Shown here: positions 377-40,252 of the stretch, piece after piece | How positions within the stretch are numbered: the first letter of the stretch is position 1 | Layout of the letters: each line of letters starts with the position of its first letter | Source: Microcystis aeruginosa Ma_MB_S_20031200_S102 | Lineage (GTDB): Bacteria > Cyanobacteriota > Cyanobacteriia > Cyanobacteriales > Microcystaceae | Length of the DNA: 40,420 nt | NCBI GenBank assembly: GCA_007095845.1 | Contig: SFBI01000042.1 | Location: forward strand, 1-40,420 | Direction of reading: 5' to 3' | The notes under the pieces: model-generated | The model's input: the letters and a program-made list of their open reading frames with translations, nothing else | Told to the model about the DNA's origin: nothing | Database searches by the model: none | Position numbers and translations under genes: made by a program

Positions 377-2491
377 TTAAGGAACGCGGAGCATTCGTTC
401 TTCGATTTCTTGCCAAACGGTAGGGGAAATATTAACAGCCACTTTTTTGCAGTCGAGAATCCGGAGATTAATATAAAAATAATCCTTGTTTATATCGTCA
501 AATTTGTAGGTGGATAAATTAAGTAATTTAGTTAAATTAAAAGCAGTATTCCACACTTCAAATAATTGATCAGCAAATTCTCGACGTTCTTTTTTAGTTG
601 CTTTATCATCAGGAATATTTTGTTTTAAAGCCTCTAAATCAGCGATTAATTGGAAAAAATTAACCCTAGAAACAATTCGATACTGAGCAAATAAGTTAAC
701 TAACTGGACATACTCATCGATGAGTTTCGGGGTAAAGAGTATCCTGGAGATGTTGTAGGCGATTTCGGGGGCGTAGGCGTAGGCGATGTCGATGCTGTTG
801 GTGATGGCGATACCGATGAAGTTGGCGTTGGCGGTGACAATGAAGTTGGCGTTGGCGGTGACGTTGGCGGTGGCGAGGAAGAGCCAATAGGCACTCGCTC
901 TTCTTCCTACAGGTTTAATCGGACTATCAACAGAATCTTTAGTCATCTCATCTGCCCATTGCAAAATCGGCACTAATTTTTGACCGAGGGGCGTTTTAAG
1001 ATAATTATGGGCTTCTTTCTCCATTGCTAATAACAATTTATCGGCTTTCCCTCGCATCAAACCCGCTACTAACAAAAACACCTCTTGCCAACGAGTTTCT
1101 GTTACATAATTCTTAACTGCTTCTTCAATCAACTCATTGTCATAGATATACTGAGCCGTGAGGTATTCCTGAAGGGTTAAATGAGAAAAAGAATAGACAT
1201 CTCTCGCCCGCTCTACTAAAATTCCCTGTTCAATTTCAATGGTTTTTAATACTTTTTCGCCGTCCAGATGTTGCGGAGCATTTAAGTTTTGTTTAAGGTG
1301 ATCTTTAATTTGCTTAACAACTTCTCGTTTTTCTAGAAAAAGTTTATCTGCTACAAAATTTTGATAAGCAATTTCAGATAGCAAAATTTCTTCTTGCTCA
1401 ATACTGAGATTTTCATAAACTAAACCGCGATTAGGTAAACGTTTTTCGGCTGACCATTTTTCCAATAAAATTCGTAACGCATCTTGATAAAGGCGACTGC
1501 GATTTGTGGGAAACGATTGATTTTCATCATAAACCAAACACAAAAAAGTCAACAATAACGGTGTATGGGCTAACTCTTTTGCACTTTTATACTCCTCCTT
1601 TTGCAACAGTTCCCAACAATTTTTAGCTGTCTCATTTTTGCGATCTAATTCCGAACTAAACCAATGTTCAATAAAACTTTGAATTTGCTGATCATCAAAT
1701 TCGACAATTTCAATATCGGTAAATCGTTGAAGATGAGTTCTAGCAGCAGTGCGACAGGAGAGAATAAAACGATTTTTGTAATGCCTATCTACAAAATCTT
1801 TAATTTTCTCGATTACATTATTCACATTAGCTGTTGGCACTTCATCCAAACCATCTAATAAAATTAGTAATTCTCCTTTTTCTAGTTTATTGCTAATATT
1901 TTTTTCCACGTTGGGAAAACCACAGATTTTAAACTCCTCTTCAATTAATGCCTGAATATTAATCTCGTTTTCTTTAAAGTTTTTCAACTCCAGTAAAACA
2001 GGTGTTAGAGAATGCTGATAACTGTCTTTATTTCCCTTGAGAGCTTCTAGCCCAACTTTTCGCAAAAATGTAGATTTACCCATGCCGGGATCACCAAGTA
2101 CCATTAAATATTGTTCTTGATTCGCCAAAAGTAAACCATCTTTTTTACCATCATCCCTAAAGTTAAAACGTCGCTGCTTACTCTCACGATATTTATTTTC
2201 TAAATTTTCATCATAATAATCCCTGACTAAATTCCCCAAACATTTGACATTAACATAAATTGACTCCAAATCCATCGGCTTAGACATTTTTAAAACCTTA
2301 ATCATGCCGTGCCGATCCCAGTAACGTTGAGTATATTCCCGTAAAAAAAGATACTTTCCTTCTTTGATAAGTTGCCCGACATCTTTATTCAATAACTCAT
2401 TTTTATTAATACCCTCCCACCCCGATTTAATCATTTGGCCAATAAAATTATTAGTCAATGCCGTTACAATGGTTGTTTCAATTCCTGTCAT
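377..2491 (-). CDS. NACHT-domain STAND NTPase with internal hypervariable-looking repeats
   Basis: A 704-residue NLR-like STAND NTPase. The P-loop GDPGMGKST is near residue 133 and Walker B LLILLDGLDEVP near residue 210, followed by the CRTA sensor region and a helical domain with FSHLTLQEYLTAQY near residue 440, typical of NACHT proteins. Such proteins couple ligand sensing to nucleotide-dependent oligomerisation, and many bacterial ones act in antiphage defence; the specific role here is inference. The N-terminal ~120 residues are not a recognised effector. Residues ~535-575 are a low-complexity run (TANANFIV, TANANFIG, then Ile/Ala/Tyr-rich) encoded by markedly more G+C-rich, repetitive DNA than its surroundings. 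If the window is circular, the gene sits about 240 bp upstream of the conflict operon, same strand. Confidence 0.9.
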   Translation of the reverse strand: MTGIETTIVTALTNNFIGQMIKSGWEGINKNELLNKDVGQLIKEGKYLFLREYTQRYWDRHGMIKVLKMSKPMDLESIYVNVKCLGNLVRDYYDENLENKYRESKQRRFNFRDDGKKDGLLLANQEQYLMVLGDPGMGKSTFLRKVGLEALKGNKDSYQHSLTPVLLELKNFKENEINIQALIEEEFKICGFPNVEKNISNKLEKGELLILLDGLDEVPTANVNNVIEKIKDFVDRHYKNRFILSCRTAARTHLQRFTDIEIVEFDDQQIQSFIEHWFSSELDRKNETAKNCWELLQKEEYKSAKELAHTPLLLTFLCLVYDENQSFPTNRSRLYQDALRILLEKWSAEKRLPNRGLVYENLSIEQEEILLSEIAYQNFVADKLFLEKREVVKQIKDHLKQNLNAPQHLDGEKVLKTIEIEQGILVERARDVYSFSHLTLQEYLTAQYIYDNELIEEAVKNYVTETRWQEVFLLVAGLMRGKADKLLLAMEKEAHNYLKTPLGQKLVPILQWADEMTKDSVDSPIKPVGRRASAYWLFLATANVTANANFIVTANANFIGIAITNSIDIAYAYAPEIAYNISRILFTPKLIDEYVQLVNLFAQYRIVSRVNFFQLIADLEALKQNIPDDKATKKERREFADQLFEVWNTAFNLTKLLNLSTYKFDDINKDYFYINLRILDCKKVAVNISPTVWQEIEERMLRVP
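760..885 (-). repeat. G+C-rich coding tandem repeats in the NACHT gene
   Basis: A clear 24-bp unit is repeated head to tail at 816-838 and 839-862, encoding NANFI-type octapeptides, flanked by shorter degenerate units (gttggcggt, ggcgtaggc types). Repeat length is a multiple of three, so gain or loss keeps the frame. Composition differs sharply from the A+T-rich remainder of the gene. Confidence 0.75.
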
Positions 2492-2535
2492 AACTTAACC
2501 CCTGTAAATCCTCTGACGCTTAGTATAAGCCAGAA

Positions 2536-2566
2536 AGCGGGTTTCCCAACAACTCAGAAACCCGCT
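2536..2566. repeat. Hairpin AGCGGGTTTC/GAAACCCGCT
   Basis: Perfect 10-bp arms enclose an 11-base loop, just upstream of the NACHT gene and next to a dispersed 147-bp repeat. Related strings (AACCCGCTTTCT, AACCCGTTTTCT) occur at about 2735 and 3684, suggesting a small family of palindromic repeats. Confidence 0.7.
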
Positions 2567-2713
2567 GGCTCTTTTGGATTTGGTGGGTAAAATGTATTCT
2601 GAGATATAGTCCTGCTGGCGAGGGAGTGGAGGGAACCACTCCAGACACAGAGGACAAAAAGATCGATCGATCATATAGTAAGTTAAACTTATCACACAGA
2701 ACCTAGAAGAGCC
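2567..2713 (-). repeat. 147-bp dispersed repeat, copy A (inverted relative to copy B)
   Basis: The reverse complement matches 32561-32706 along its length: both begin with (G/A)CTCTTCTAGGTTCTGTG, contain GATAAGTTTAACTTAC and end with ACATTTTACCCACCAAA followed by AGAGCC. This copy has short terminal inverted repeats GGCTCTT/AAGAGCC. It lies in the 5' flank of the first NACHT gene; copy B lies in the 3' flank of the second. No coding potential is evident, so it may be a MITE or another non-autonomous repeat. Confidence 0.85.
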
Positions 2714-2780
2714 ACCCGCTTACTTGAAGAAACCCGTTTTCTAAGAATATAATGTGCTTAAATTAGATAATTTCTAAGTC

Positions 2781-3092
2781 ATGAGAACGAAACCAGATAA
2801 AGATTTGCCCCAAGAGACTAAAATCGGCAAAAATGAGCGGTTAGAGGCTTGCATAACAGCAGAGCAAAAGCAACTGATGGAGATGGCTGCCTTTTTACGG
2901 GGACAGAACTTGACTGAATTTATGGTGTCAGTTTTGGCTGAGGCAGCTATGCAAACGATCAAAGATAGCCAATTGGTAGAATTAACCGAACGCGATCAAT
3001 TAACTTTTGTCGAGGCCCTGTTAAATCCCCCCGCTCCCTCCGAGCAGGCTCAAGCAGACGCTCAATGGTACGAGCAAATGATGAATAAATAG
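2781..3092 (+). CDS. DUF1778-type ribbon-helix-helix antitoxin
   Basis: A 103-residue protein with an N-terminal stretch (NERLEACITAEQKQLMEMAA, then RGQNLTEFMV) typical of DUF1778/TacA antitoxins, which use an RHH fold to bind their own operator and a C-terminal tail to neutralise a GNAT toxin. The acidic, Gln-rich C-terminus fits that tail. The GNAT toxin gene begins 11 bases after the stop codon, so the two form one operon. Autoregulation is expected from the family; no operator was identified. Confidence 0.85.
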   Translation: MRTKPDKDLPQETKIGKNERLEACITAEQKQLMEMAAFLRGQNLTEFMVSVLAEAAMQTIKDSQLVELTERDQLTFVEALLNPPAPSEQAQADAQWYEQMMNK

Positions 3093-3103
3093 TTGCTAGA
3101 TTT

Positions 3104-3631
3104 GTGTTAAATTCGGAATCTGTTGATTTTTGTCTAGAAACTCTCGAAAGCCATCACAATCGAGCAGCTTTTAGGTGTGGTAACGAACAACTGGATCGCT
3201 ACTTGCACGACCTCGCTACCCAAGATAAGAAGCGAAATATTGCCATTCCCTACGTTCTCGTTGACCGAGAACGCAAAAAAATCATGGGCTACTATACTTT
3301 ATCCATGAGTAGCATCAATCTCGAATCGCTACCCCAAAGTCTTGCTAAAAAGTTGCCTAAATATCCGCTAGTTGGCGTGACTTTAATTGGTAGATTAGCA
3401 GTGGATCTTGATTGTCGGGGATCTGGTTGGGGGAAATTGTTGATTATGGATGCTTTATATAGAAGTCTGAGAGTCAGTCAAACAACGGGGTGTTTTGCGG
3501 TGGTGGTAGAGGCGGTTGACGATAAAGCAGTGAGATTTTACCAAAGGTTTGACTTTCAAACTTTTCCTGACCAGCCTTATAAGCTGTTCCGTACCATGAA
3601 AAACCTTGCTCAGACTTTTGATTTACCCTGA
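3104..3631 (+). CDS. GNAT-family acetyltransferase toxin (TacT/AtaT-like)
   Basis: A 175-residue protein with a GTG start at 3104; an in-frame stop at 3086 excludes longer starts. It has family hallmarks: FRCGNEQLDRYL near residue 23, LIGRLAVD at ~93, the acetyl-CoA loop CRGSGWGKLL at ~104, and VVVEAVDDKAVRFYQRFDF near the end. Toxins of this group acetylate aminoacyl-tRNA and block translation, and are held in check by the DUF1778 partner encoded immediately upstream. The GNAT core is complete, so the module looks intact. Confidence 0.88.
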   Translation: MLNSESVDFCLETLESHHNRAAFRCGNEQLDRYLHDLATQDKKRNIAIPYVLVDRERKKIMGYYTLSMSSINLESLPQSLAKKLPKYPLVGVTLIGRLAVDLDCRGSGWGKLLIMDALYRSLRVSQTTGCFAVVVEAVDDKAVRFYQRFDFQTFPDQPYKLFRTMKNLAQTFDLP

Positions 3632-3646
3632 GATCAGAAAAGATGC

Positions 3647-3695
3647 TAGAAAGCAGTTTTCTTTTAAAAGAAGAAACCCAAAAACCCGCTTTCTA
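3647..3695. terminator. Cruciform-forming inverted repeat after the TA module
   Basis: Outer arms TAGAAAGC (3647-3654) and GCTTTCTA (3688-3695) enclose a perfect 14-bp palindrome TTCTTTTAAAAGAA (3659-3672). It lies between the GNAT toxin gene and the cysteine desulfurase gene, so it may end toxin transcription, but no clean T-run follows. It shares the CCCGCTTTCT motif with the repeats near 2.5-2.75 kb. Confidence 0.45.
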
Positions 3696-3760
3696 ATCCT
3701 TAAGCCCCTAAAATGAGAATAGCTGCCTGTCTTGACTCTCATTTCTCAGATTGTAAAATA

Positions 3761-4927
3761 ATGCAAATTTATCTTGACTATAGCGCCACTACCCCCACTC
3801 ATCCCCAAGTAATCGAGCGGGTTGCCACTATTCTGCGGCATCATTGGGGCAATCCCTCCAGTTTACACAGTTGGGGACAGGATACGGCGACAGTCATCGA
3901 AATGGCCAGAGAACAGGTAGCAGGGTTAATTAATGCCAATCCAGATCAGATTATCTTTACTTCTGGCGGCACAGAAGCCGATAATTTAGCGATTATCGGG
4001 GTTGCTCAACAGTATAACCGCCCCCGTCATATAATTATTTCTAGTGTGGAACATTCGGCGATCGCTGAACCCTGTAAACAATTAGAAGAGCAAGGTTGGC
4101 AAATTACTCGTCTTCCCGTCAATCGTCAAGGTAGAGTTAATCCTTTAGACCTAAAAGCCGCAATTCAAAGCGATACGGTCTTAATTTCCATTATTTACGG
4201 ACAAAGTGAGGTGGGAACCCTACAACCGATTGAAGAATTGGGCAGCATTGCCAGGGAAAGGGGAGTTCTTTTTCACACCGATGCCGTGCAGGTGGCGGCA
4301 AGATGCGACATTGATGTGCGGAAACTGCCCGTAGATTTATTATCTCTTTCTAGCCATAAAATTTATGGAATGCAAGGATCGGGAGCTTTATACATCAGAG
4401 CCGGTGTCGACATTTTACCATTACTGCGGGGCGGTGGTCAGGAAAAAGGCCTGCGATCGGGAACCCAATCCGTACCAGCGATCGCAGCTTTTGGTTTAGC
4501 GGCCGAATTAGCCCAAAAAGACTTAATTAGCGAAAAAATGCGTTTAATCGCCCTACGAGATCGATTATTTGACCTCTTAGCTGATTATCCTTATCTGCTG
4601 CCCACGGGGGACCGATTCTATCGTTTACCCCACCACGTCAGCTTTATTGTCCGTCCCGACGATAACAGTCACATCACGGGAAAACAGCTAGTTCGTCAGC
4701 TTAATTTAGCAGGAATCGGCATTAGTTCCGGATCCGCCTGTCATAGTGGCAAACTTTCCCCTAGTCCAATTTTAAAAGCTATGGGCTACAGCGATCGAGA
4801 AGCATTGGCGGGAATTCGTTTAACCCTGGGAAGGGACACCAGCGCAGCCGATATCGATTGGACTGCTCTAGTATTAAAACAAGTGATCGATCGCTGTTTA
4901 GCTGCTTTAATTGTCAGCAAGAGTTAG
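3761..4927 (+). CDS. Cysteine desulfurase (NifS/IscS family)
   Basis: A PLP-dependent enzyme that takes sulfur from cysteine to form an enzyme persulfide for Fe-S cluster and other sulfur transfer. The protein begins MQIYLDYSATTPTHP, as the family does. An ATG at 3713 would add 16 residues unlike the family, so 3761 is preferred (388 aa). Visible motifs are TSGGTEADNLAI (PLP phosphate binding), the VEHSA histidine, LSLSSHKIYGMQGSG with the Schiff-base lysine, and SSGSACHSGKLSPS with the persulfide cysteine. Length and motifs are normal. No Fe-S assembly partner is adjacent, and the next gene is convergent. Confidence 0.92.
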   Translation: MQIYLDYSATTPTHPQVIERVATILRHHWGNPSSLHSWGQDTATVIEMAREQVAGLINANPDQIIFTSGGTEADNLAIIGVAQQYNRPRHIIISSVEHSAIAEPCKQLEEQGWQITRLPVNRQGRVNPLDLKAAIQSDTVLISIIYGQSEVGTLQPIEELGSIARERGVLFHTDAVQVAARCDIDVRKLPVDLLSLSSHKIYGMQGSGALYIRAGVDILPLLRGGGQEKGLRSGTQSVPAIAAFGLAAELAQKDLISEKMRLIALRDRLFDLLADYPYLLPTGDRFYRLPHHVSFIVRPDDNSHITGKQLVRQLNLAGIGISSGSACHSGKLSPSPILKAMGYSDREALAGIRLTLGRDTSAADIDWTALVLKQVIDRCLAALIVSKS

Positions 4928-4928
4928 T

Positions 4929-5126
4929 TTATGCCTCAAATTGTCCTTCAATCAAGATAATTTCGCCAAAGTCGGGAATCCATGCCACCCAACGGCCTTG
5001 ATCCTGTTCACAGAGTAGTAGTGCTTCATCAAAGCTGTATGGAGAGGGAAGCATTCTTAGTCGTACCCATGTATTTGCTTGGGGACAAGTAACAACGGCA
5101 GTAGTGCGAGATTGTAGTAAGGACAT
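4929..5126 (-). CDS. Small conserved-type hypothetical protein (65 aa)
   Basis: A short soluble protein with a balanced composition (…QDQGRWVAWIPDFGEIILIE…), convergent with and 1 base from the end of the cysteine desulfurase gene. The WVAWIPDFGE stretch resembles small uncharacterised cyanobacterial proteins, but I cannot name a family. There is no signal peptide or membrane segment. It is kept as a likely gene because it fills the space cleanly and is not an antisense shadow. Confidence 0.6.
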   Translation of the reverse strand: MSLLQSRTTAVVTCPQANTWVRLRMLPSPYSFDEALLLCEQDQGRWVAWIPDFGEIILIEGQFEA

Positions 5127-5532
5127 ACACAGATCACCCTGATAATTCTGTATCTAAATTTACAAAAAAACCGATGACTGTGGGTAACTTTGTTTTAAAT
5201 CTTTACCTTTTCATTGGTAATTTGAGAAAAAATCTCTCTTTCTTGCTCACGGTTTTCGACTACCAATCCTAGTTAGGGTTTGCTGAATAAATGTGAAATA
5301 TAGACGAGGTAAGGGTTTTAGGTTTCTGTTTCGCTCCCACAGATGCGAGATTTTGAGAGAATCGTGGTTCAAAACCTTGCGTCTTCATCGGCCCGCGTCC
5401 TGTAGGGGTGAAGCATTCGGACAATAACCTATCCCTGAAACCGGAGATTTTCTATCCGAATGCTTCGCCCGTACTTTTTGCTGCAAACCCTAGTTATGAT
5501 CTTTAATGGTAAATGATAGTTAATAACTGGTA
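5127..5532. other. Intergenic region occupied mainly by a MITE-like element
   Basis: About 400 bp without a gene between the small minus-strand gene and the metallophosphoesterase gene. More than half is the repeat at 5276-5490. The remaining flanks are A+T-rich, and no promoter could be assigned with confidence. Confidence 0.6.
5276..5490. mobile_element. MITE-like element, 215 bp
   Basis: The ends GGGTTTGC and GCAAACCC form 8-bp terminal inverted repeats, each flanked by TAGTTA (5270-5275 and 5491-5496), which looks like a 6-bp target duplication or conserved outer end. Inside is a long stem: GGTGAAGCATTCGGA at 5407-5421 pairs with TCCGAATGCTTCGCC at 5455-5469 with one mismatch. There is no ORF. 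A solo TAGTTAGGGTTTGC end also occurs at 12946, so the family is dispersed. Confidence 0.65.
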
Positions 5533-29721: not shown

Positions 29722-32562
29722 ATGTCCGAATCAGCTGCTGGAATTTCTGTTTCCAAACCCCAAAATATCTGGAAACGACAAGTTAAAGTCAATCTGAGAA
29801 GTCTCTTTAGTACCCTGGGAAAAGCCGCTCTTAACGGGGCATTTTTGCAGTGGGATGATCTGGCCGAAAATGGAGTAGAAGTTTTAGATGCTCTTGGTTT
29901 AAGTCGGACTCCGGGGGAATTGGCGGGTTTATTAATAATTCGATCGCTAATGAAAGCGATGAAAGGATTACTTAAAAGTAATGCTGATTTACTGTCCCAA
30001 GAAGTTGAAAAGCTGCCTTTAAAAGAACTTTACCGTCAGATTACCGACTCTTTACAAGAGCAGGAATTAAATCTCGATCGAGATTTTTTTGAGCATCCCG
30101 AAAGATTACCCATAGTCGCACCAGTCCAAACAGCTTTTTTACAGTGGTTAACAACAAATAATTTAATCACTAATTCCCAGGAAGCGCAGAGCCTAAGTAA
30201 CCGTTTACCAGCTTATTTTGTCTCAGCGTTGCAGGAACAATGGAAAGATAAACGAGATGAATACAGTCTGCTTTTAGATGAAATCGACACTCCTTTTAAC
30301 AATGCTTGGAAACGAGAAAGCGGCTGGTTACATTATCGAGCTTGGTTGCAAAAACAGATCGATGAACCTATTTTTTGGGAAGCCTTTAGTTTAAAGCAAA
30401 TTTATGTACCTCTACGGGGATTTTATGAAGAAGAAGAAATCAAAGCCACCCCAGACACAGATTACCATCGAGAGCCATCATTTAAACGCATTGTCATCAA
30501 ACTCCAAGAGCAGTTAGAAACATGGTTAGAAGCGGCAAAATCCGATGATGCTATCCGTTTATTGACCGGTGGGCCAGGTAGTGGAAAATCGTCCTTTTGT
30601 AAGGTATTTGCTGCCCAACAAGCTGGTTTAGAAAAACAAGTTTTATATATTCCCTTGCATCGCTTGAGTTTCTCCACCGATTTAGTAACAGCAGTTAAAA
30701 CTTTTGTTCAACATGAAGGTTTTTTACCAGAAAATCCTCTAGAACCGAGCGATCAAGATTTACGATTACTAATTATCTTTGATGGCTTAGATGAGCTATC
30801 TATGCAGGGAAAAATCGCCCAAGAAGTCGCCCAAAATTTTATTAATGAAGTACGAGAACAGGTGAAAAGTTTTAATCAAAATAAAACCCGTTTACAAGTG
30901 TTGATTAGTGGGCGTGATGTGGTGGTACAATCCAATAAAAATAATTTTAAAAAACCTCAGCAAATTATCACTATTTTACCCTATTGGGTTGCTAAAAGCG
31001 ATGATTTTAGCGATGTCGATAACTTATTAAAAGTCGATCAACGTCATCAATGGTGGCAACAGTATGGGCAAGCTAAAGGGAAAAACTATGCACAATTACC
31101 GCCGGAATTATCGGGGGAAAATTTACAAGAAATTACCGCTCAACCGCTATTAAATTATCTTATTGCTCTCACTTTTGAACGAGGCGAAGTTCAATTTTCC
31201 CAAGAAACTAATCTCAATAATATTTATGACAATTTGCTCAAGGCAGTTTATGAGCGAGGTTATGAAAAAAATAGTCCAGGCCACCGGGCTATAGAAGGGA
31301 TTACAGAAAAAGATTTTGTGATAATTTTAATGGAAATTGCCCTTTCCTGTTGGCATGGTAATGGTAGAACCACCACCGTGAGAGAGATTGAAGAACATTG
31401 TGAAAATAATGGCTTAAAAAATCTCCTAAAAAATTTCCAAGATAGTTTTCAAAGCGATTCCCAAGGGAGTATTACCCGTCTTTTAACAGCCTTTTATTTT
31501 CGAGAAAGTGGCGATTTACGAGGCAGCGAAAAAACCTTTGAATTTACCCATAAAAGTTTTGGTGAATATTTAACTGCCCGCAGAATTGTTGACCGAGTTA
31601 AGCAAATTCATAAGAAATTACAAGACAGTGAAAATGATTATGACAATGACTACGATCCCAGACAAGCTTTAATCGCCTGGGCGACTTTATGCGGACCGAC
31701 GGCAATAGATGAATATCTTTTTCGTTTTGTTGTCAATCAAATACAATTACAGTCCCCAGATGAAGTGAAACAGTGGCAGAAAACTCTGGGTCATTTAATT
31801 GAATATCTTTTGGTCAAAGGAATGCCGATGGAGGGTTTAAAAAACCGCCCCAATTTTCAGGAGGAAATGCGACAGGCACGCAATGCCGAGGAAGCTTTAT
31901 TAGCGGTATTCAATGCCTGTGGGCGAGTCACCAAAGAAATTTTTCCCATTCAATGGCCTTCTCCTGAAGCTTTCGGCAATTGGTTAGCCCGTCTTCAGGG
32001 ACAAAGAATAGATTATAAGCCTATGTTTGTGTTAGATTGTCTCAGTTTTCTTGATTTACAAAACTGTCTGTTGATATATCGAGATCTTTGCGGGGCAAAT
32101 CTTGAAAGGGCTAATCTTGCAGGGGCTAATCTTAGATGGGCAATTCTTGCAGAGGCAAATCTTGCAGGGGCAAATCTTAGAAGGGCAATTCTTGTAGATG
32201 CAAATCTTGTAGGGGCAAATCTTGAAAGGGCAAATCTTGAATGGGCAAATCTTAAAGGGGCAAATCTTGCAGAGGCAAATCTTGAAAGGGCAAATCTTGA
32301 AAGGGCAAATCTTAAAAGGGCAAATCTTGAATGGGCAAATCTTAAAGGGGCAAATCTTGAAAGCGCTAATCTTGAAAGCGCTAATCTTGAAAGGGCATAT
32401 CTTGAAGGAGCAAATCTTGAAGGGGCAAATCTTGAAGAGGCTAATCTTAGATGGGCAATTCTTGCAGAGGCAAATCTGGTCGGGGCTAATCTTGAAGGGG
32501 TTAATTTTAAAGATGCTAACGTCAAAGGGACGATTCTCGATACGGAAGTTAAAACCGAGTGA
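29722..32562 (+). CDS. NACHT STAND NTPase with C-terminal pentapeptide repeats
   Basis: A 946-residue protein. The N-terminal ~280 residues are helical with no recognised effector. The NACHT core has Walker A TGGPGSGKSSFCK near residue 288 and Walker B LLIIFDGLDELS near residue 352, then a helical region with FEFTHKSFGEYLTARRIV near residue 611. From about residue 790 there are some 30 pentapeptide repeats (AxLxx; ANLER, ANLEW, ANLKG), forming a right-handed beta-helix that probably serves as a sensor or binding surface. Their DNA units are nearly identical 15-mers, implying recent expansion. A role in defence or programmed cell death is inferred from the class. Confidence 0.9.
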   Translation: MSESAAGISVSKPQNIWKRQVKVNLRSLFSTLGKAALNGAFLQWDDLAENGVEVLDALGLSRTPGELAGLLIIRSLMKAMKGLLKSNADLLSQEVEKLPLKELYRQITDSLQEQELNLDRDFFEHPERLPIVAPVQTAFLQWLTTNNLITNSQEAQSLSNRLPAYFVSALQEQWKDKRDEYSLLLDEIDTPFNNAWKRESGWLHYRAWLQKQIDEPIFWEAFSLKQIYVPLRGFYEEEEIKATPDTDYHREPSFKRIVIKLQEQLETWLEAAKSDDAIRLLTGGPGSGKSSFCKVFAAQQAGLEKQVLYIPLHRLSFSTDLVTAVKTFVQHEGFLPENPLEPSDQDLRLLIIFDGLDELSMQGKIAQEVAQNFINEVREQVKSFNQNKTRLQVLISGRDVVVQSNKNNFKKPQQIITILPYWVAKSDDFSDVDNLLKVDQRHQWWQQYGQAKGKNYAQLPPELSGENLQEITAQPLLNYLIALTFERGEVQFSQETNLNNIYDNLLKAVYERGYEKNSPGHRAIEGITEKDFVIILMEIALSCWHGNGRTTTVREIEEHCENNGLKNLLKNFQDSFQSDSQGSITRLLTAFYFRESGDLRGSEKTFEFTHKSFGEYLTARRIVDRVKQIHKKLQDSENDYDNDYDPRQALIAWATLCGPTAIDEYLFRFVVNQIQLQSPDEVKQWQKTLGHLIEYLLVKGMPMEGLKNRPNFQEEMRQARNAEEALLAVFNACGRVTKEIFPIQWPSPEAFGNWLARLQGQRIDYKPMFVLDCLSFLDLQNCLLIYRDLCGANLERANLAGANLRWAILAEANLAGANLRRAILVDANLVGANLERANLEWANLKGANLAEANLERANLERANLKRANLEWANLKGANLESANLESANLERAYLEGANLEGANLEEANLRWAILAEANLVGANLEGVNFKDANVKGTILDTEVKTE
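32088..32530 (+). repeat. Coding 15-bp tandem repeats (pentapeptide array)
   Basis: About 30 consecutive 15-bp units of the form gcaaatcttgaaagg, many differing only in the last codon pair. Several frames on both strands stay open because the unit is a multiple of three. High nucleotide identity points to ongoing unit duplication and loss. Confidence 0.9.
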
Positions 32563-33691: not shown

Positions 33692-33920
33692 TCGTTTCCC
33701 CTTTTTTTAAGTTTCTTCTCTTTTTGTTAAGAAAGATCCGACTAATGGATAGCTTATCAAAGGGGGGCAGGGGGGATCCCCCCTTATCAAGGGGGGCAGG
33801 GGGGATCTAACCCCCTAGATAATTAACCACCCCTGAACTAATACACTTGTACTATAGTCTGCCCAAAAAAAATCCCGGAAAAGGGAATGAGGGTAAAAAG
33901 GGAAAAAAAGGGGAAAAGGG
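33692..33920. other. Intergenic DNA with G-rich repeats and a weak terminator
   Basis: Two direct copies of a 24-25-bp unit (TTATCAAGGGGGGCAGGGGG followed by GATC) lie at 33754-33778 and 33784-33807. After them come A+T-rich DNA and a purine tract up to the stop codon of the FGE gene. Confidence 0.7.
33865..33886 (-). terminator. Possible terminator after the conflict operon
   Basis: On the minus strand: TCCC, loop TTTTCC, GGGA, then eight T. The stem is only 4 bp, but position (35 bases after the stop) and T-run fit an operon end. A small G/C hairpin just 3' of a retroelement variable region is also a known accessory to diversification, so a second role is possible. Confidence 0.4.
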
Positions 33921-36452
33921 TTACAGGGTTCTCCCAGCACCGCACACCACCCGAAAACCGAAGTAGCTGTCGTCGTCGTAGTCGCGGCGGTAGTCGAGGC
34001 TGCGGCAAGCGGAACGGCAGTGATTCGGAAGGTCGAACCAAGAACCGCCCCGCAGTACACAATATCGGTCATCTGTCAATAGTTCATTTATACTATTTAA
34101 TAAATTTTGATAACGATTATTATTATTTTTTTCGTCCCAAACGCTCCCGTCTGTGGGCGGTGCGCCTTGATAATCACTATGCCACGGATCTAAACACCAC
34201 TCCCAAACATTCCCGTGCATATCGTACAGCCCAAAGGCGTTGGGGGGATAGGAGCGGACGGGGGTGGTTTTCTTTGGGGATTTTTTCGGCTTTTCTTGTT
34301 GATAGACCTTTGAACTATTGTAATTCGCCAGTTCTCCCTTGATCGTCGCACCAAAGTGGAAGGGGGTAGTTGTTCCCGCTCTACAAGCGTATTCCCACTC
34401 AGCCTCGCTCGGTAAACGGTAATTTTTTCCCGTGTGACGGGACAGACGGGCGCAGAATTCGATCGCATCGTACCAACTCACGCGCTCGACGGGGTTGTTA
34501 TCGCTTTGCTTAAAGTACGCGGGGTCTGGATTGAGGTCTTTTCCTTCCCTCGGTAGGTGGGCCACGAACCGCCATTGCGCCCGGGTAATCGGAGTCTGGC
34601 TCAGGTAGAAGGCACTGACGCTCACGAGGTGTTGGGGTTTTTCAGACTCGTTATCGTCCTTTTCTCCCGGTGAACCCATCAGGAATTCGCCCCCCGGGAT
34701 AGCAACCATAGTCAGGGGTTCGATTCCCTCGCCTAGGGGTTCCTCGTAGTAGTAGGCCTCCAGGGATTCTCTTTTGGTAATTTCTCCCCGTTTATCGACG
34801 TATAGGGTCTCGAAGGGGAATTTTAGGAGTTTTTCGGGGGTCAAGATTTCCTGTTTTCGCTGCCTCACTCTCTCCTCGATGTTTTGGGCGATATCGGCGT
34901 ACTCTCCCCCCCAAGTGCGGAGAACAGCCGCGTCCACCTCGGCAAAGTAGAGAGAGCGATCGCTGACTGCATCCTCTAGAGAACCCTGTGGATTGGGGAT
35001 TAGAGCCGAAAAATCGCGAAATTCGCCGTAATGGTCGCGAATATAATCGCCGATACCCCGCCAAATATCGATCGTGCGTCGGTTGGCACTATCTGCCAAC
35101 AGTAGCTGACGAATGCCGGGGTGAAAATCGTACCAAGCATCCGGAACCGTCGCTGCCTCCGGACTAAAAATAGACTTTTGCACCAGTCCGCTAAAAAAGA
35201 CCTCCGCTAGATGCCAATGTTTACTATCGGGTAAAAATCGCCGCTGTGCCAATCGCATCACCGGAGGAATCAGAGGAACGGCCGCCAGCACTTTGACCAG
35301 TTCTCGGGACAAGGGACTAGCATCGATTAAAAAGCCTCTCAATAACTCTTCCGGGGATTCCGCTTCCGGAGCGGCTGCCTCTTCTTCTCCGGTTTCACCC
35401 ATATTCACCCCCGCAGTGGTTGCTCCCATTAAAACCCCCTGAATCGAATTACCACCGCTCCCGGCGATAAATTTCGCCCAGGTGGCAAAGTGAGCGGGGG
35501 ATAGATTGAAAATGGGGAACCGATAGAGAATCTGCTTTGTGCGGAGTCTTTCCCCCACTTGCAGTGTTGCGTTGGCAGAAGCGGGACCGGGTGCGATCAA
35601 AGGCCGGAGGATCGCCCCCTCTAAAGCGGTTCGTTGCCATAGCTGCTGCGGGAAAATGTGAGCAATGGTGACGGGGTGTTCTTTGCCCAGATCCGCTAGG
35701 GTGGCGAAGGCAGACCCCGATCGCCAAGCTTTCCCCAAAGTATCGGTTAGGACAATAAAAAGTCGGTTCCCAGAGGGTGCAACCAGACTGCGAGGGTTCC
35801 GTTCGATTTGCCCCGCACCGGAAAGCAAACGAGCTTCATTTTCACCCGTCTCGAACCACCAAACCCGCACATCCCTAAAAAAGCCTTGCCAACGGAAGAG
35901 GGTGGTCATTCCCCCCGCTAGATCTCCCCAAAATTCCATCGGGGGAGAGCGATCGATCAACAGGTGAACCTCTAACCAACGTTCTAGGGGGGGTCGGAAA
36001 GCGAGCATCGGTAATCCCCCCGCTTCGGCCGTCCGTTCCACTGTAACCTCGATATCCAACTCGTCGGCCCGTAATCCAGGCACGCGACGCGCTAGGGGGA
36101 GAATTGCCTTACTGATGGCCGCGGGTTCGGGTATCGGAAAGGGATCGGGGACGCGAACGGGAGAAGAACGATCGCTCTCGACCGAATCGCGCTTCTGGGG
36201 TGTCTGCGTCGGGCGATCGATGTTTTCGGGATAGGCAACGGGGAGCGTTGACTCGATCGCTCCGGGGGGAGGGGTTTCTTCACCGCTGCCGGATGACCGG
36301 TTATCATCCTTGTCATTAGATGAGATTGGTTCCGAATGTTCAGACTGCTCGATCGACCAAGGCGCAATAATTCGATCGAGGTAAGCAGCGCACCAGATCA
36401 GTTCTGCCATTTCCCTCTCGTCTTCCCACCAGATGGCTTTTTTCCCTTCCAT
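33921..36452 (-). CDS. SAV_2336/vWA-like protein with C-terminal FGE-sulfatase (CLec-fold) domain
   Basis: An 843-residue protein. Residues 1-30 (EREMAELIWCAAYL) and ~110-300 match SAV_2336-type N-termini, including a vWA-like strand LLIDRSPPM with an altered metal motif. Residues ~40-110 are a disordered Pro/Ser linker, and ~370-560 are helical. From ~579 (IPGGEFLMGSPGEKDD, RLPSEAEWEYACRAG, MHGNVWEWCLD, VLRGGSW, GFRVV) comes an FGE/SUMF1 domain with C-type-lectin fold. The first cysteine of the catalytic FGE pair (after GGSW) is Asp, so it is probably a binding domain. Residues 806-831 look like a retroelement variable region. ATG follows GGGGAG closely, 8 bp after the MoxR stop. It is the likely sensor of the operon. 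Confidence 0.88.
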   Translation of the reverse strand: MEGKKAIWWEDEREMAELIWCAAYLDRIIAPWSIEQSEHSEPISSNDKDDNRSSGSGEETPPPGAIESTLPVAYPENIDRPTQTPQKRDSVESDRSSPVRVPDPFPIPEPAAISKAILPLARRVPGLRADELDIEVTVERTAEAGGLPMLAFRPPLERWLEVHLLIDRSPPMEFWGDLAGGMTTLFRWQGFFRDVRVWWFETGENEARLLSGAGQIERNPRSLVAPSGNRLFIVLTDTLGKAWRSGSAFATLADLGKEHPVTIAHIFPQQLWQRTALEGAILRPLIAPGPASANATLQVGERLRTKQILYRFPIFNLSPAHFATWAKFIAGSGGNSIQGVLMGATTAGVNMGETGEEEAAAPEAESPEELLRGFLIDASPLSRELVKVLAAVPLIPPVMRLAQRRFLPDSKHWHLAEVFFSGLVQKSIFSPEAATVPDAWYDFHPGIRQLLLADSANRRTIDIWRGIGDYIRDHYGEFRDFSALIPNPQGSLEDAVSDRSLYFAEVDAAVLRTWGGEYADIAQNIEERVRQRKQEILTPEKLLKFPFETLYVDKRGEITKRESLEAYYYEEPLGEGIEPLTMVAIPGGEFLMGSPGEKDDNESEKPQHLVSVSAFYLSQTPITRAQWRFVAHLPREGKDLNPDPAYFKQSDNNPVERVSWYDAIEFCARLSRHTGKNYRLPSEAEWEYACRAGTTTPFHFGATIKGELANYNSSKVYQQEKPKKSPKKTTPVRSYPPNAFGLYDMHGNVWEWCLDPWHSDYQGAPPTDGSVWDEKNNNNRYQNLLNSINELLTDDRYCVLRGGSWFDLPNHCRSACRSLDYRRDYDDDSYFGFRVVCGAGRTL
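33960..34037 (-). other. Putative diversity-generating retroelement variable region (VR)
   Basis: 26 codons (residues 806-831) between the conserved GGSW and GFRVV motifs of the CLec-fold domain. Six codons are ccg, cgt, gct or cgc (Pro, Arg, Ala, Arg). All other 20 are NNC (18) or NNT (2): six GAC and no GAT for Asp, three TAC and no TAT for Tyr, and Ser as TCC/AGC. This is the pattern left when template AAC/AAT codons are mutated at their adenines. DGR variable regions are typically at this place in CLec-fold proteins. The template repeat and reverse transcriptase are not in the window. Confidence 0.72.
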
Positions 36453-36460
36453 CTCTCCCC

Positions 36461-37561
36461 CTACCCTTGCAAGGATTTAAAGAGGGTGTCTAGGAGCGAT
36501 TGGCGATCGGTGGCGTTGAGGTCGTTTCCCTGTAGTAACAGATAGACCGCGTTGAGCAGTTGATCCGTGGCTAGTTTGTCTTTGCGTTTAATTCGATCGA
36601 GAAATTTCCGGATCAGTTCTCTGGCCGGTTCGTCCAATTGATTTAGGCTCTCCGGGGGGAAACGTTGCTCTAGTATCCGATAGAAATCATCCTCGTTATT
36701 GGGTTGTTCTAGTCTTAAACGCAAACATCGACGCAGAAAAGCGGGGGGAAACTCCCGGGCCTCGTTACTGGTCATGAATACTAGGGGAAACTCCTTGCAG
36801 GACACACAACCTCGATCGATCGGGATTTTTTCCTCGCTGTCATCCTGTTGACCGCGATAGGGAAGAACGGATTGGTCGCCGGTTTTTAATCGTGTCAATT
36901 CCGGAATCTCAAAAAATCCCTCCTCGAAAATATGGAGGAGATCGTTAGGCATATCGATATCGCTTTTATCGATCTCATCAATTAGCAGCACCGCCGGTCG
37001 TCCTGGAAGGGATTGTTTAAAAGCCATCCCCATGGGGCCTAATCTTAGATAGCTGCCGATATCTGGCTCCTCGTACTTTCCCCCCTCTCCCACTTTCTGT
37101 CTTTGTAGGGAAGCTTCCTGTAACCGTCCGATCGCATCGTAGGCATAAAGACCCTCTTTAAGGGTGGTGCGAGAAACGATCAACCAACGGTAGGGGCCGG
37201 GTAATCCCAATTCCCGCGCTACTGCGTAGGCCAGGGAAGTCTTGCCGGCGCCGGGGTTGCCCTCGATCAGTAGGGGACGACGCAAGCAGAGGGCCGCGTT
37301 TACCAGTTCCACCGCTTTCTTATCCGCGACGAATCCTAAAGCCCTAGGGTCGATTTTTGCCTGTTTGGGCGGTATTTCTTGGGATTTCGCCGCTTTTGTC
37401 CATTCTTCCGGGGACAGGCTAAAACTGCGCCAAGGGGGTGGGGGTGGGATGCGATCGAGATGTTTTTTTTGTTCTTTGGCTGTGGGTAAACTATCGGCAC
37501 TCAGGGTCAAACCCCGATAGATGCGAAGTTCTTCTGCTTTGGTAACTGGTTTATCGGCCAT
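36461..37561 (-). CDS. MoxR-type AAA+ ATPase of a ternary conflict system
   Basis: A 366-residue AAA+ ATPase. Walker A EGNPGAGKTSL is near residue 100, Walker B AVLLIDEIDKSD near residue 190, sensor FMTSNEAREFPPAF near residue 265 and the arginine pair FLRRCLRLRL follow. MoxR proteins remodel a vWA-domain partner; here the vWA-like partner is the next gene. The ATG overlaps the end of the caspase-VMAP gene by 11 bp and the stop is 8 bp from the next start, so the genes are translationally coupled. An insertion around residues 225-250 contains CVSCKE. Confidence 0.9.
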   Translation of the reverse strand: MADKPVTKAEELRIYRGLTLSADSLPTAKEQKKHLDRIPPPPPWRSFSLSPEEWTKAAKSQEIPPKQAKIDPRALGFVADKKAVELVNAALCLRRPLLIEGNPGAGKTSLAYAVARELGLPGPYRWLIVSRTTLKEGLYAYDAIGRLQEASLQRQKVGEGGKYEEPDIGSYLRLGPMGMAFKQSLPGRPAVLLIDEIDKSDIDMPNDLLHIFEEGFFEIPELTRLKTGDQSVLPYRGQQDDSEEKIPIDRGCVSCKEFPLVFMTSNEAREFPPAFLRRCLRLRLEQPNNEDDFYRILEQRFPPESLNQLDEPARELIRKFLDRIKRKDKLATDQLLNAVYLLLQGNDLNATDRQSLLDTLFKSLQG

Positions 37562-39401
37562 TGGATTCCACCACTTTCGTGTTTAGAGGTCTCGGTCTCG
37601 GTGCGGGTTTGGGGTATAGATCGTCCCAGAAAAGGGCGATTTTTCGCTTGTTTCTGCGTAATTCTTTGATATTATCGGGCCAGTTTCTCCATTCCGAGGG
37701 TTTTAGATCGTTATCTGTCATCGGTTGATTGGCGTTTCGACTCCAGACGGCGATCGGCAGGGATTCCACGATCTTGTCCAGATCGGCGATCGATGGTTCG
37801 GTTCCGATGTAGTAATGTTCCCGGTCAAGATCGCTATTATTTTCCCATAAAGCTCTCTTGATCCCCTCGATCTCGTCGCGGATCTCTCGGAAGTCTTCAT
37901 CGAAATAGCGATCAAAGGAGTTAATAAAAACAGGATACTCGTATCCGATAGATGGCCCATCACCGCATCTAAACTTAATATCTTCTAGGGAGTGTTTCAG
38001 CAAAGCAAATGGAAGGAAAAATTCAATCTCTAGTCTCGCTCGATCGGGTAAATAGTAAAATATTTCAGGAATTACCTGATAGAAACTATTTTGCATTTCT
38101 TCTGACCTAAAATTTTCTTCTTTTTCATAGATATTCCATAACTCAATTTTATTGTTTATTCCTACAAAAAACATCACATTTATATGAAAATATTCTGTTT
38201 GTAAGCCAGTATTATTATGTTTATCAATTGCGGGTGAGATTACAATTTGTATTCTTCCTTTTAGTTCGATATTTTTATTAAATTTATCCCACAATTCTCT
38301 CGCATATTTCTTAATTGTGTCTAATTGCACACCATCCCTATATCGAACAGCTTCACCTTTCCAAGTATCAATATTGTCAGCAATATCTAGGGTTTCATCC
38401 TTAAATAACTTCAACCTGCACCATTCAGAAAATAAAATCAAAGGACATATTTCTTGATTAACTGGCTTACTAGATAAATCTTTTAGTTTTCCTCTAAGCT
38501 CTTGTATGTTTGAAATAGATGATGATTTGGGATCATCATAGACTAACAGAAAAGAGTTGATTAAAAATAGACTATTATCGGAATTAATATTTAAAGTATC
38601 GAAAAGTTTTTCGATTAAATTAAATCGTTGATTTTCCCATTTTTGGTCAGCTTTAGGATAAGTAGGAAAAAACCTAGCATAGGTTTCAATTCCTAGCGCA
38701 GAATAATTAACACGCTGATTACTGTCAACATTCTGGTTCATTTTATCAACCAACCAACCTAGATCGACATATCCACGGTGGGAATAAAAATCGATCGCTT
38801 TTATGTCATCGAGAGCTTGTTGCAGCGATCGGGATAAAACGCCTTCGATCGCTGTATCTTTTGCCCTACAAGCTGCCATAACATGAATAGCTATATTAGC
38901 TCCTCGAACCGCTTCATATTGTTTGATCGCATTGCTAACAAATTTTATAATATCTCCCGCACCACTTTGGGAGTAACAAGTATCAATAATATAGAGAATT
39001 TGAGAGATGGTTACTTGCTTATTGTTAAGAGGACGAACTAAGTCTTGAGTCGGTAAAGCCGTTGAAGGGATATCGTCACTATTTGTATCTTTCAGGATGA
39101 GATAATGTCCATCACCTGGACAATATTCGCCATGACCAGAATAGTAGAAAATAAGAATATTTTTCGTTCCATGTCGCTCTCTATCCCGAAGCCAATTAGG
39201 GAATAATTTTTTAAGATCGTTAGTTGTGGGATTTAAATGTAAACTTGGCAGAACTCTTTCATATCCAAAACCACTGGTAAAGAGACTGTTCACCAGTTCT
39301 AAATCCGTCTCGACGCTGGGTAATTGCTCGAATGCGTTGTAATCCTTTGTCCCACAAGCGATTAGATAATACTTGATTTCTTCATCAATATCATTACCCA
39401 T
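37551..39401 (-). CDS. Caspase-like protease fused to VMAP C-terminal domain
   Basis: About 616 residues from ATG 39401, which overlaps the upstream TGA as TGATG (a TTG one codon earlier also exists). Residues 1-~190 are a C14/metacaspase-type domain with catalytic His in IFYYSGHGEY and Cys in YIIDTCYSQSGAG. A helical segment (~240-310) follows, which could be an adaptor. The C-terminal ~300 residues match VMAP-C: RARLEIEFFLPFALL, IGYEYPVFINSFDRYF, PIAVWSRNA and ALFWDDLYPKP. VMAP proteins link MoxR/vWA switches to effectors; here the caspase is the effector. Proteolytic targets are unknown. Confidence 0.88.
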   Translation of the reverse strand: MGNDIDEEIKYYLIACGTKDYNAFEQLPSVETDLELVNSLFTSGFGYERVLPSLHLNPTTNDLKKLFPNWLRDRERHGTKNILIFYYSGHGEYCPGDGHYLILKDTNSDDIPSTALPTQDLVRPLNNKQVTISQILYIIDTCYSQSGAGDIIKFVSNAIKQYEAVRGANIAIHVMAACRAKDTAIEGVLSRSLQQALDDIKAIDFYSHRGYVDLGWLVDKMNQNVDSNQRVNYSALGIETYARFFPTYPKADQKWENQRFNLIEKLFDTLNINSDNSLFLINSFLLVYDDPKSSSISNIQELRGKLKDLSSKPVNQEICPLILFSEWCRLKLFKDETLDIADNIDTWKGEAVRYRDGVQLDTIKKYARELWDKFNKNIELKGRIQIVISPAIDKHNNTGLQTEYFHINVMFFVGINNKIELWNIYEKEENFRSEEMQNSFYQVIPEIFYYLPDRARLEIEFFLPFALLKHSLEDIKFRCGDGPSIGYEYPVFINSFDRYFDEDFREIRDEIEGIKRALWENNSDLDREHYYIGTEPSIADLDKIVESLPIAVWSRNANQPMTDNDLKPSEWRNWPDNIKELRRNKRKIALFWDDLYPKPAPRPRPLNTKVVESNGR

Positions 39402-40252
39402 CAATCGATTAACCCCGATCGAATCGCTTCCCCAGTTTCAACCGCCGTCAGATACCTTTTGGCATCATGAGCCTCGCTACCATTATAAACTAGCTTATCC
39501 TCGACAGTTCCCTCAAATAAAGGGTTGAGTTGCTTTGTCAACGCCACCACATCGCCATCGTCCGCGATATTTACCCATCTTTTCACATTTCCGGGCCAGC
39601 GCCCCAGGTTATTGTGGGGGGATGGTTGCAGTCGATCGAAAATTAATTGTCTTATCCCCAAAGGAGAACCGAGGGTGACAAAGACTTTAATCGGCCATTC
39701 TGGATGCTGACATAAAGTTTCGTAACAGACGATCGAACCGAGAGAATGAGCTACAAGTACCCGCGTATCTTCATCGATAGATTCTATTACTCGCTTTTGA
39801 ATCTGCTGTTTTAGCTTTTGATCGTGTAAATAGCTCCCCACTTGCTTAAGATAAGAAATAACCAATTTCTCGGCAATGCCACCGAAAAATCGAGATTCAC
39901 TTAACCCCGACAAAGCTCTCTGGATAATTTTTGGGGTAGATTTTTCTCTCAAAAGGCTATTCGCATTGGGATGATTATTTTCCACTCGTTCCGTTTCTTG
40001 CCACCACGACTGGAGTAATTCTTTTTCCCAATCGGAATCGATATCACTAACATCGTAGTTCGGAATACCGATCGCTTTCGATTTTCCCCGAAAAATATCT
40101 CCGTAAAACGCACAACGAAAATCAGTATCGGACTCTAACTCGGTTCCCGCGAGTTTCAATCCATCCTTGAGACTCGGCAACCACTCAGCAGAAATCGTGT
40201 GGCTACCCCTAAATTCTTGCGCGATACCATGAACACCGACAATTTTAGCCAT
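39401..40252 (-). CDS. Alpha/beta hydrolase (lipase-like) in the conflict operon
   Basis: A 283-residue hydrolase. The N-terminus KIVGVHGIAQEF gives the first strand and oxyanion region, VLVAHSLGSIVCYE at ~166 holds the nucleophilic Ser, DDGDVVAL (~232) a likely acid and SEAHDAKRYL near residue 260 the catalytic His. It lacks a signal peptide. Such hydrolases occur in bacterial conflict operons, perhaps acting on membrane lipids or esters as an effector. The stop overlaps the caspase-VMAP start by one base. Upstream, 85 bp away, is the small split gene. Confidence 0.87.
   Translation of the reverse strand: MAKIVGVHGIAQEFRGSHTISAEWLPSLKDGLKLAGTELESDTDFRCAFYGDIFRGKSKAIGIPNYDVSDIDSDWEKELLQSWWQETERVENNHPNANSLLREKSTPKIIQRALSGLSESRFFGGIAEKLVISYLKQVGSYLHDQKLKQQIQKRVIESIDEDTRVLVAHSLGSIVCYETLCQHPEWPIKVFVTLGSPLGIRQLIFDRLQPSPHNNLGRWPGNVKRWVNIADDGDVVALTKQLNPLFEGTVEDKLVYNGSEAHDAKRYLTAVETGEAIRSGLID

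Follow-up and report, generated by a model that had tools for sequence, protein, structure and literature searches.

A putative conflict sensor of Microcystis aeruginosa with a hypermutated 3' end, and a matching template on another strain's plasmid

Introduction

Microcystis aeruginosa is a bloom-forming, colonial cyanobacterium. In the 40,420-nucleotide stretch analyzed here (contig SFBI01000042.1 of strain Ma_MB_S_20031200_S102, GCA_007095845.1; hereafter the window), a gene of a VMAP-type operon ends in a segment with the codon pattern of a hypermutated variable region (VR), which raises the question of what wrote this segment and whether its writer still resides in the genome. According to the original prediction, this segment is the VR of a diversity-generating retroelement (DGR) and forms the C-terminal end of an FGE/CLec domain encoded in a conflict operon; the retroelement itself was assumed to lie elsewhere in the genome. 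The BPP-1 DGR and Treponema TvpA combine adenine mutagenesis, a CLec fold and a C-terminal VR, as here; the BPP-1 DGR acts in cis on one target, unlike the system described below.

The available excerpts of Kaur et al. 2020 (PMC7159879) describe ~80% of cyanobacterial and gammaproteobacterial VMAP ternary cases as DGR-associated. In those of Vallota-Eastman et al. 2020 (PMC7517822), cyanobacterial variable proteins (VPs) lie far from the reverse transcriptase (RT), plasmid DGRs occur in Anabaena sp. 90 and Fischerella sp. NIES-4106, and the VP all3226 retains remnant homology between template repeat (TR) and VR with no proximal RT. For M. aeruginosa NIES-843, the accessible part of PMC8934634 lists seven RTs, each belonging to the group II intron type. 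Our literature search found no publication devoted to Microcystis DGRs.

Results

The 26 codons between GGSW and GFRVV coincide exactly with the VR core of Table 1, as predicted, and the predicted codon counts are correct: 20 codons are NNC/NNT (18 ending in C, 2 in T), and the other six encode Pro, Arg or Ala. C or T ends 25 of the 26 codons, compared with maxima of 21 per 26-codon window upstream in the same gene and 22 in the nine other window ORFs (3,501 windows). Asp is GAC six times and Tyr TAC three times in the VR, whereas elsewhere in the gene the counts are GAT 32 vs GAC 11 and TAT 8 vs TAC 16. Of the 20 codons originally taken to be free, 18 are so; TGC (codon 7) and TCC (codon 9) are constants in the template that fits. 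Adenine-bearing template positions hold 19 VR codons, namely these 18 plus the Pro codon, whose third base (CCG vs template CCA) is a mutated adenine; one of them is an extra codon of the AAC run. The CLec-fold gene carries the VR at its 3' end, followed by a tail that it shares with a template and that occupies the position of the IMH.

Table 1. Features of the target locus, in window positions
Feature	Position	Strand	Evidence
Target gene, 843 aa: SAV_2336-type N-terminal region and C-terminal FGE/CLec domain ending in the VR	33921..36452	-	PF03781 2.7e-51; NF041121 6.7e-131
VR 3' constant tail (GGTTTTCGGGTGGTGTGCGGTGCTGGG)	33933..33959	-	identical to class A' template, unlike resident template
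VR core, 26 codons, adenine-mutated	33960..34037	-	0/43 non-A and 18/32 A differences, one extra AAC-run codon vs NIES-2481 p1 template
VR 5' constant flank (GCGGGGCGGTTCTTGG), common to templates	34038..34053	-	sequence comparison
AAA+ ATPase, in place of MoxR component	36461..37561	-	PF00004 6e-8; PF07728 1.7e-5
VMAP protein with caspase-like domain	37551..39404	-	PF00656 3.3e-12; VMAP-M14 1.4e-27; VMAP-C 3.1e-11
First gene of same-strand run, 283 aa	39401..40252	-	no Pfam, NCBIfam or PADLOC match

DGR targets in VMAP-type operons are already known, and the window VR is a further example. A VMAP protein with an effector domain is present (VMAP-M14, VMAP-C, caspase); the ATPase matches AAA families and no MoxR-specific model, while the ATPase beside the FD4 plasmid target is annotated MoxR. 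No Pfam match to a vWA domain occurs in the operon, the N-terminus of the target being SAV_2336_NTERM. The VLVAHSLGS segment of the 283-aa protein looks like a hydrolase nucleophile motif, judged by sequence. PADLOC matched neither the 283-aa protein nor the target, whose sensing role is presumed; it matched the ATPase, the caspase protein and a NACHT protein weakly, and the RT described below with many RT models. This NACHT protein (29722-32562, plus strand), with an NNH3 N-terminus and many pentapeptide repeats, adjoins the operon as a second possible conflict gene. The CLec-type domain of the sensor is related to the known variable protein 2y3c (1.9e-32), and the AlphaFold model of the FGE domain has pLDDT <50 over residues 199-250, the stretch leading into and overlapping the VR, and was therefore set aside.

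We then searched the window's own genome (G000; a 4.57-Mb draft of 219 contigs, 99.68% complete). Window positions 33900-34090 have 17 DNA matches there, the window itself included, and the genome contains one RVT_1 match (C9:9643-10284). At C9:8364-10620, an Avd gene, an RT gene and an A-rich TR stand in succession, both genes being open, so that an A-rich near-copy beside a DGR RT and Avd does exist in this genome. The Avd matches NF033474 (137.8 bits, cut-off 80; 1.4e-40); the RT is an open frame of 352 aa (PF00078, 4.5e-21) with the TR directly downstream, and carries IGNLTSQ and YVDD motifs, which we take to be of DGR type. No NCBIfam RT model scored above its cut-off for this RT.

If this resident DGR writes the window VR in trans today, its template must have drifted since the last writing. 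RT, Avd and TR are indeed all in the same genome, and the comparison of TR and VR is still strongly A-biased, with 17 (17-18) of 30 template adenines changed vs 5 of 45 other positions (p 1e-5). Moreover, in G005 a gene whose counterparts in other genomes bear class A' VRs contains a VR with 0/45 non-A mismatches to the G000-type template, which indicates that this type of template has written in trans somewhere. The non-A mismatches at the window VR, however, include CCT/CCG and AAC/AAT differences common to sibling VRs, one codon differs as well, and the tails are unlike (GTAGTCTGC and a 24-nt insertion for the TR, GTGGTGTGCGGTGCTGGG for the VR). None of the 13 tabulated own-genome VR-like cores has <3 non-A mismatches to the resident template (two further ones, C148 and C160:24310, were only aligned by eye), 8 of the 13 fit the class A' template best, and a template with zero non-A mismatches exists elsewhere. 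Because of the five non-A mismatches, the differing codon and the different 3' tail, the resident TR is, by sequence, a sister of the window VR's own template. The prediction of a retroelement elsewhere in the genome therefore holds as to the presence of RT, Avd and A-rich template, whereas this DGR is probably not the author of the window VR, and current writing by it seems improbable.

Both targets beside the resident RT (L010, G000:C9, 7970-8072 and 11613-11713) are without a VR, TTGG being joined to the tail with different junctions, which may reflect real deletion or an assembly artefact. A 22-bp inverted repeat flanks each VR-less site, and its downstream arm also lies in the TR tail (10626); the repeat is absent from the 18 kb of the FD4 plasmid that were examined.

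The template with zero non-A mismatches belongs to class A' and reads TAC AAC AAT CCA AAT AAC TGC CGT TCC GCT TAC CGC (AAC)4 CGC CGC GAC (AAC)6 GGT. Its form, with a last run of (AAC)5-7, was deduced from the VR family before a matching template, with (AAC)6, was read on a plasmid: RT similarity led to plasmid p1 of M. aeruginosa NIES-2481 (NZ_CP025929.1), where a template of the deduced form adjoins an RT. The window VR departs from this template at adenines only, apart from one extra codon of the AAC run, and the counts in Table 1 correspond to p 4.9e-9. A near-copy template whose differences from the VR fall at adenines thus bears out the predicted DGR VR. In that record, the N-terminal ~103 residues of the NIES-2481 RT are missing, and a complete class A' DGR was therefore not observed; among full-length class-A RTs the nearest, in G003, has a slightly different TR. 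Across 12 Microcystis genomes, a 30-base class A' TR probe (≤3 mismatches) hit nothing but the G000 and G003 TRs and, in four genomes, five VR sites; a 141-base template piece was matched at ≥99% by NIES-2481 p1 alone among plasmid records, and the class A' probe had no match in viral contigs.

In the draft assembly of G000, no class A' TR was found, and of a class-A RT only a remnant is present: a C-terminal fragment on C15 with 69% identity over RT residues 266-349. At the DNA level, the remnant is 85-88% identical to class-A RTs over 263-268 bases, whereas the resident C9 RT matches it in pieces of 83 and 44 bases only (81% and 91%). The RT remnants G000:C15 and G006:C84 are interrupted by a short palindrome-like repeat (GATCTCGCGTAGCGAGCGCGTTGCGA). 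In strain FD4 (G009), plasmid p1FD4 (NZ_CP046974.1; G009:C2) carries a full-length RT, and the DGR with this RT is plasmid-borne. Next to a large FGE target (domains assigned by eye), the FD4 chromosome (G009:C1, L110 7038-8094) has a class A Avd-like gene and a truncated RT of 225 aa; no TR was seen there.

To quantify adenine specificity, 119 FGE VR-like cores were extracted from the 12 genomes, four of which are TRs, leaving 115 VRs (3 without class). The set is not exhaustive: of 113 pattern matches, it leaves out six taken as ordinary FGE ends, and it lacks the G000 B-tail VRs C148 and C160:24310, which failed the pattern expression. Two G003 cores truncated by that expression were extended by the following 21 bases of their locus for template fits (one also for the length count) and stayed truncated in pair and within-genome comparisons. 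With the class A' template as best fit, 33 of 115 cores have 0 non-A mismatches and 32 have one. In 112 of the 115 cores, at least one of five TRs fits with ≤4 non-A mismatches; over these, relative to the best-fitting TR, 1813/3415 template adenines are changed vs 93/4739 other positions. Choosing the best TR and a cut of 4 makes the non-A rate a lower bound. Among 79 class A' VRs, 19 were dropped for other spacing, and the first 57 bases of 55 distinct sequences gave 588/1100 changed adenines vs 40/2035 changes elsewhere. An earlier count against the G003 template gave 523/960 vs 75/1776; a single position, at which the G003 TR departs from the others, accounts for 47 of the 75. That count left out class A VRs carrying a TCT codon 9 or a GCG codon 10, so that those codons look invariant in it.

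Synonymous sites served as a control. At the Pro codon (template CCA), the 55 distinct class A' VRs hold CCG 21, CCA 16, CCT 12, CCC 5 and TTA 1 times, whereas codon 8, a synonymous non-A site, is CGT in 55/55; codon 9 is TCC in 48 and TCT in 7, and the class C Pro codon (template CCT) is CCT in 12 of 13 VRs. The bases found at template adenines are T 330, G 208 and C 88, with 534 unchanged. Differences in length fall mostly within the AAC runs: the part before TGC has 6 codons in 95 of 96 distinct VRs, and the last AAC run has 5-9 codons in 67 class A/B VRs. In G010, five tandem FGE VRs lie within one open frame of 1,438 aa (L242, C165:9900-15208, ORF 993-5309, minus strand), and their best-fit templates are of different classes.

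These counts bear on whether VR diversity could arise from recombination (gene conversion) among FGE paralogues instead of reverse transcription. Some VR tails are mosaic, identical VR cores precede different tails, and in G007 a class C cassette has replaced a class A' one at the window gene. Against this, 11 of 12 genomes contain no two identical cores (maximum within-genome identity 71-83%) and the twelfth, G010, has a single identical pair; of the other 114 cores, the one closest to the window VR is only 80.8% identical, so no donor is seen in the core set. Change is also concentrated at template adenines, one synonymous adenine included. We therefore reject gene conversion as the main source of diversity and regard it as very improbable. 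Ordinary positive selection on a ligand-binding loop combined with codon bias would suit a VR in a CLec-type domain related to 2y3c, but it is contradicted by the adenine-specific counts, cannot explain four-way variation at a synonymous template-A CCN next to the invariant codon 8 or an A-rich copy adjoining RT and Avd, and is, on its own, scarcely credible.

DGR writing, the reading retained here, was further examined by comparing strains. The FD4 orthologue differs from the window gene at 191 of 2,532 bases, 32 of them in the last 132 (VR and tail) and 159 in the other 2,400. The prediction had expected substitutions to gather at the mutable codons, and change is indeed concentrated at template adenines rather than being ordinary synonymous drift. 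In 74 of 240 reciprocal-best gene pairs, the upstream DNA is ≥93% identical over ≥450 bp. VR identity in these pairs is bimodal, 59 lying below 80%, 15 at ≥95% and none between; the pairs are not independent, 11 of the 15 high-identity ones concern one frozen class B VR, and two G003 cores are truncated. In 8 of 12 genomes (G001, G002, G003, G006, G007, G008, G010 and G011; e.g. G002:C1:3811606), a single class B VR recurs, either identical or with one base changed, before different tails, and is thus a frozen VR.

Full-length DGR-like RTs (≥66% identity) occur in 4 of 12 genomes, with RT fragments in others. In the other 8, no full-length DGR-like RT was found genome-wide, though VRs persist; two of these are assemblies of one or two contigs. 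G001 (one contig) has 13 VR-like cores, one without class, and G011 (two contigs) has 10, with no full-length DGR-like RT in either; plasmids may be missing from these assemblies. Of 31 gene pairs with a full-length RT in neither genome, 22 are rewritten and 9 frozen; the 22 imply rewriting close in time in genomes that now have no writer.

Core and tail classes largely agree: A'-A 55, A'-internal 11, B-B 11 and C-C 12, compared with A'-C 1, B-A 3 and C-A 2 (other tails 17; no class 3). The tail appears to determine by which template a VR is written. The G005 VR that fits the G000-type template is of class B and has a class B tail, whereas the VR of its counterpart in G000 (C73:25172; 96.7% identity upstream) belongs to class A'. 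In G007, the flanks of the window gene are orthologous (93.7% over window 34037-36538; 87.7% over 33812-33884), with the class C cassette between them. The exchanged piece extends beyond the TR-like part, so the cassette probably came by recombination of VR and tail, with DGR writing before or after.

Discussion

We consider it very likely that mutagenic retrohoming by a class A' DGR, not found complete in this genome, wrote the 3' end of the sensor gene, with the tail appearing to pick the template. An adenine-error-prone RT, together with Avd, would have reverse-transcribed the template RNA, and the resulting cDNA would have taken the place of the VR. The template used would be class A', and the extra AAC-type codon of the run probably arose by triplet slippage; in the available text of PMC12875486, AAC-repeat slippage is mentioned as proposed by Wu et al. 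2018. The writer would since have been lost from G000, gone with a plasmid, or be absent from the draft assembly. The sensor may now be frozen in a strain in which its own writer was not found. On the other hand, a class A' DGR plasmid could have been lost in culture or missed in the 219-contig draft, and the resident RT might still act on the window VR despite the template and tail mismatch, as the G005 class B case illustrates.

The system resembles the VMAP-ternary DGR targets in the available parts of Kaur et al. 2020 (PMC7159879) and Dore et al. 2024 (PMC10907252) in its FGE/CLec C-terminal VR on a sensor/effector, in a VMAP protein and an ATPase in the place of the MoxR component beside the target, in a TR nearby or elsewhere in the genome, and in an RT of the cyanobacterial DGR clade. 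It differs in that the matching template was not found in its own genome, where the resident DGR is of another template class. With the cyanobacterial systems in the accessible text of PMC7517822, it shares the remote target, the plasmid DGR and VRs without a proximal RT; here, however, 8 of 12 genomes keep VRs with no full-length DGR-like RT found genome-wide, and the template class of the VR can differ between orthologous genes. DGR 7 of Thiohalocapsa PB-PSB1, as described in the available part of PMC10907252, also has degraded DGR parts and VRs for which the reference genome contains no perfect template; intact variants occur there in the same population, whereas here the template lies on another strain's plasmid. 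In the partial texts retrieved by our literature search, no genus is reported in which VRs so outnumber writers and a VR template sits on another strain's plasmid.

A broader scenario, which we put forward tentatively and hold at somewhat below even confidence, is that of an itinerant writer in Microcystis: RT/template cassettes of at least three classes would arrive in lineages, write in trans on their chromosomal conflict sensors as directed by the tail of each VR, and then be lost, leaving frozen sensors behind. Parts of two of these classes are seen on plasmids. If this is true, the genus shares a distributed, episodic receptor-diversification system, not a per-genome one. The 115 VR-like cores in 12 genomes represent a large repertoire of hypermutated conflict-type sensors in Microcystis, and the contrast between frozen and rewritten VRs could serve to date writer activity. 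The case also makes testable whether anticipatory receptor diversification in bacteria needs a resident writer, or whether a mobile one serves the population.
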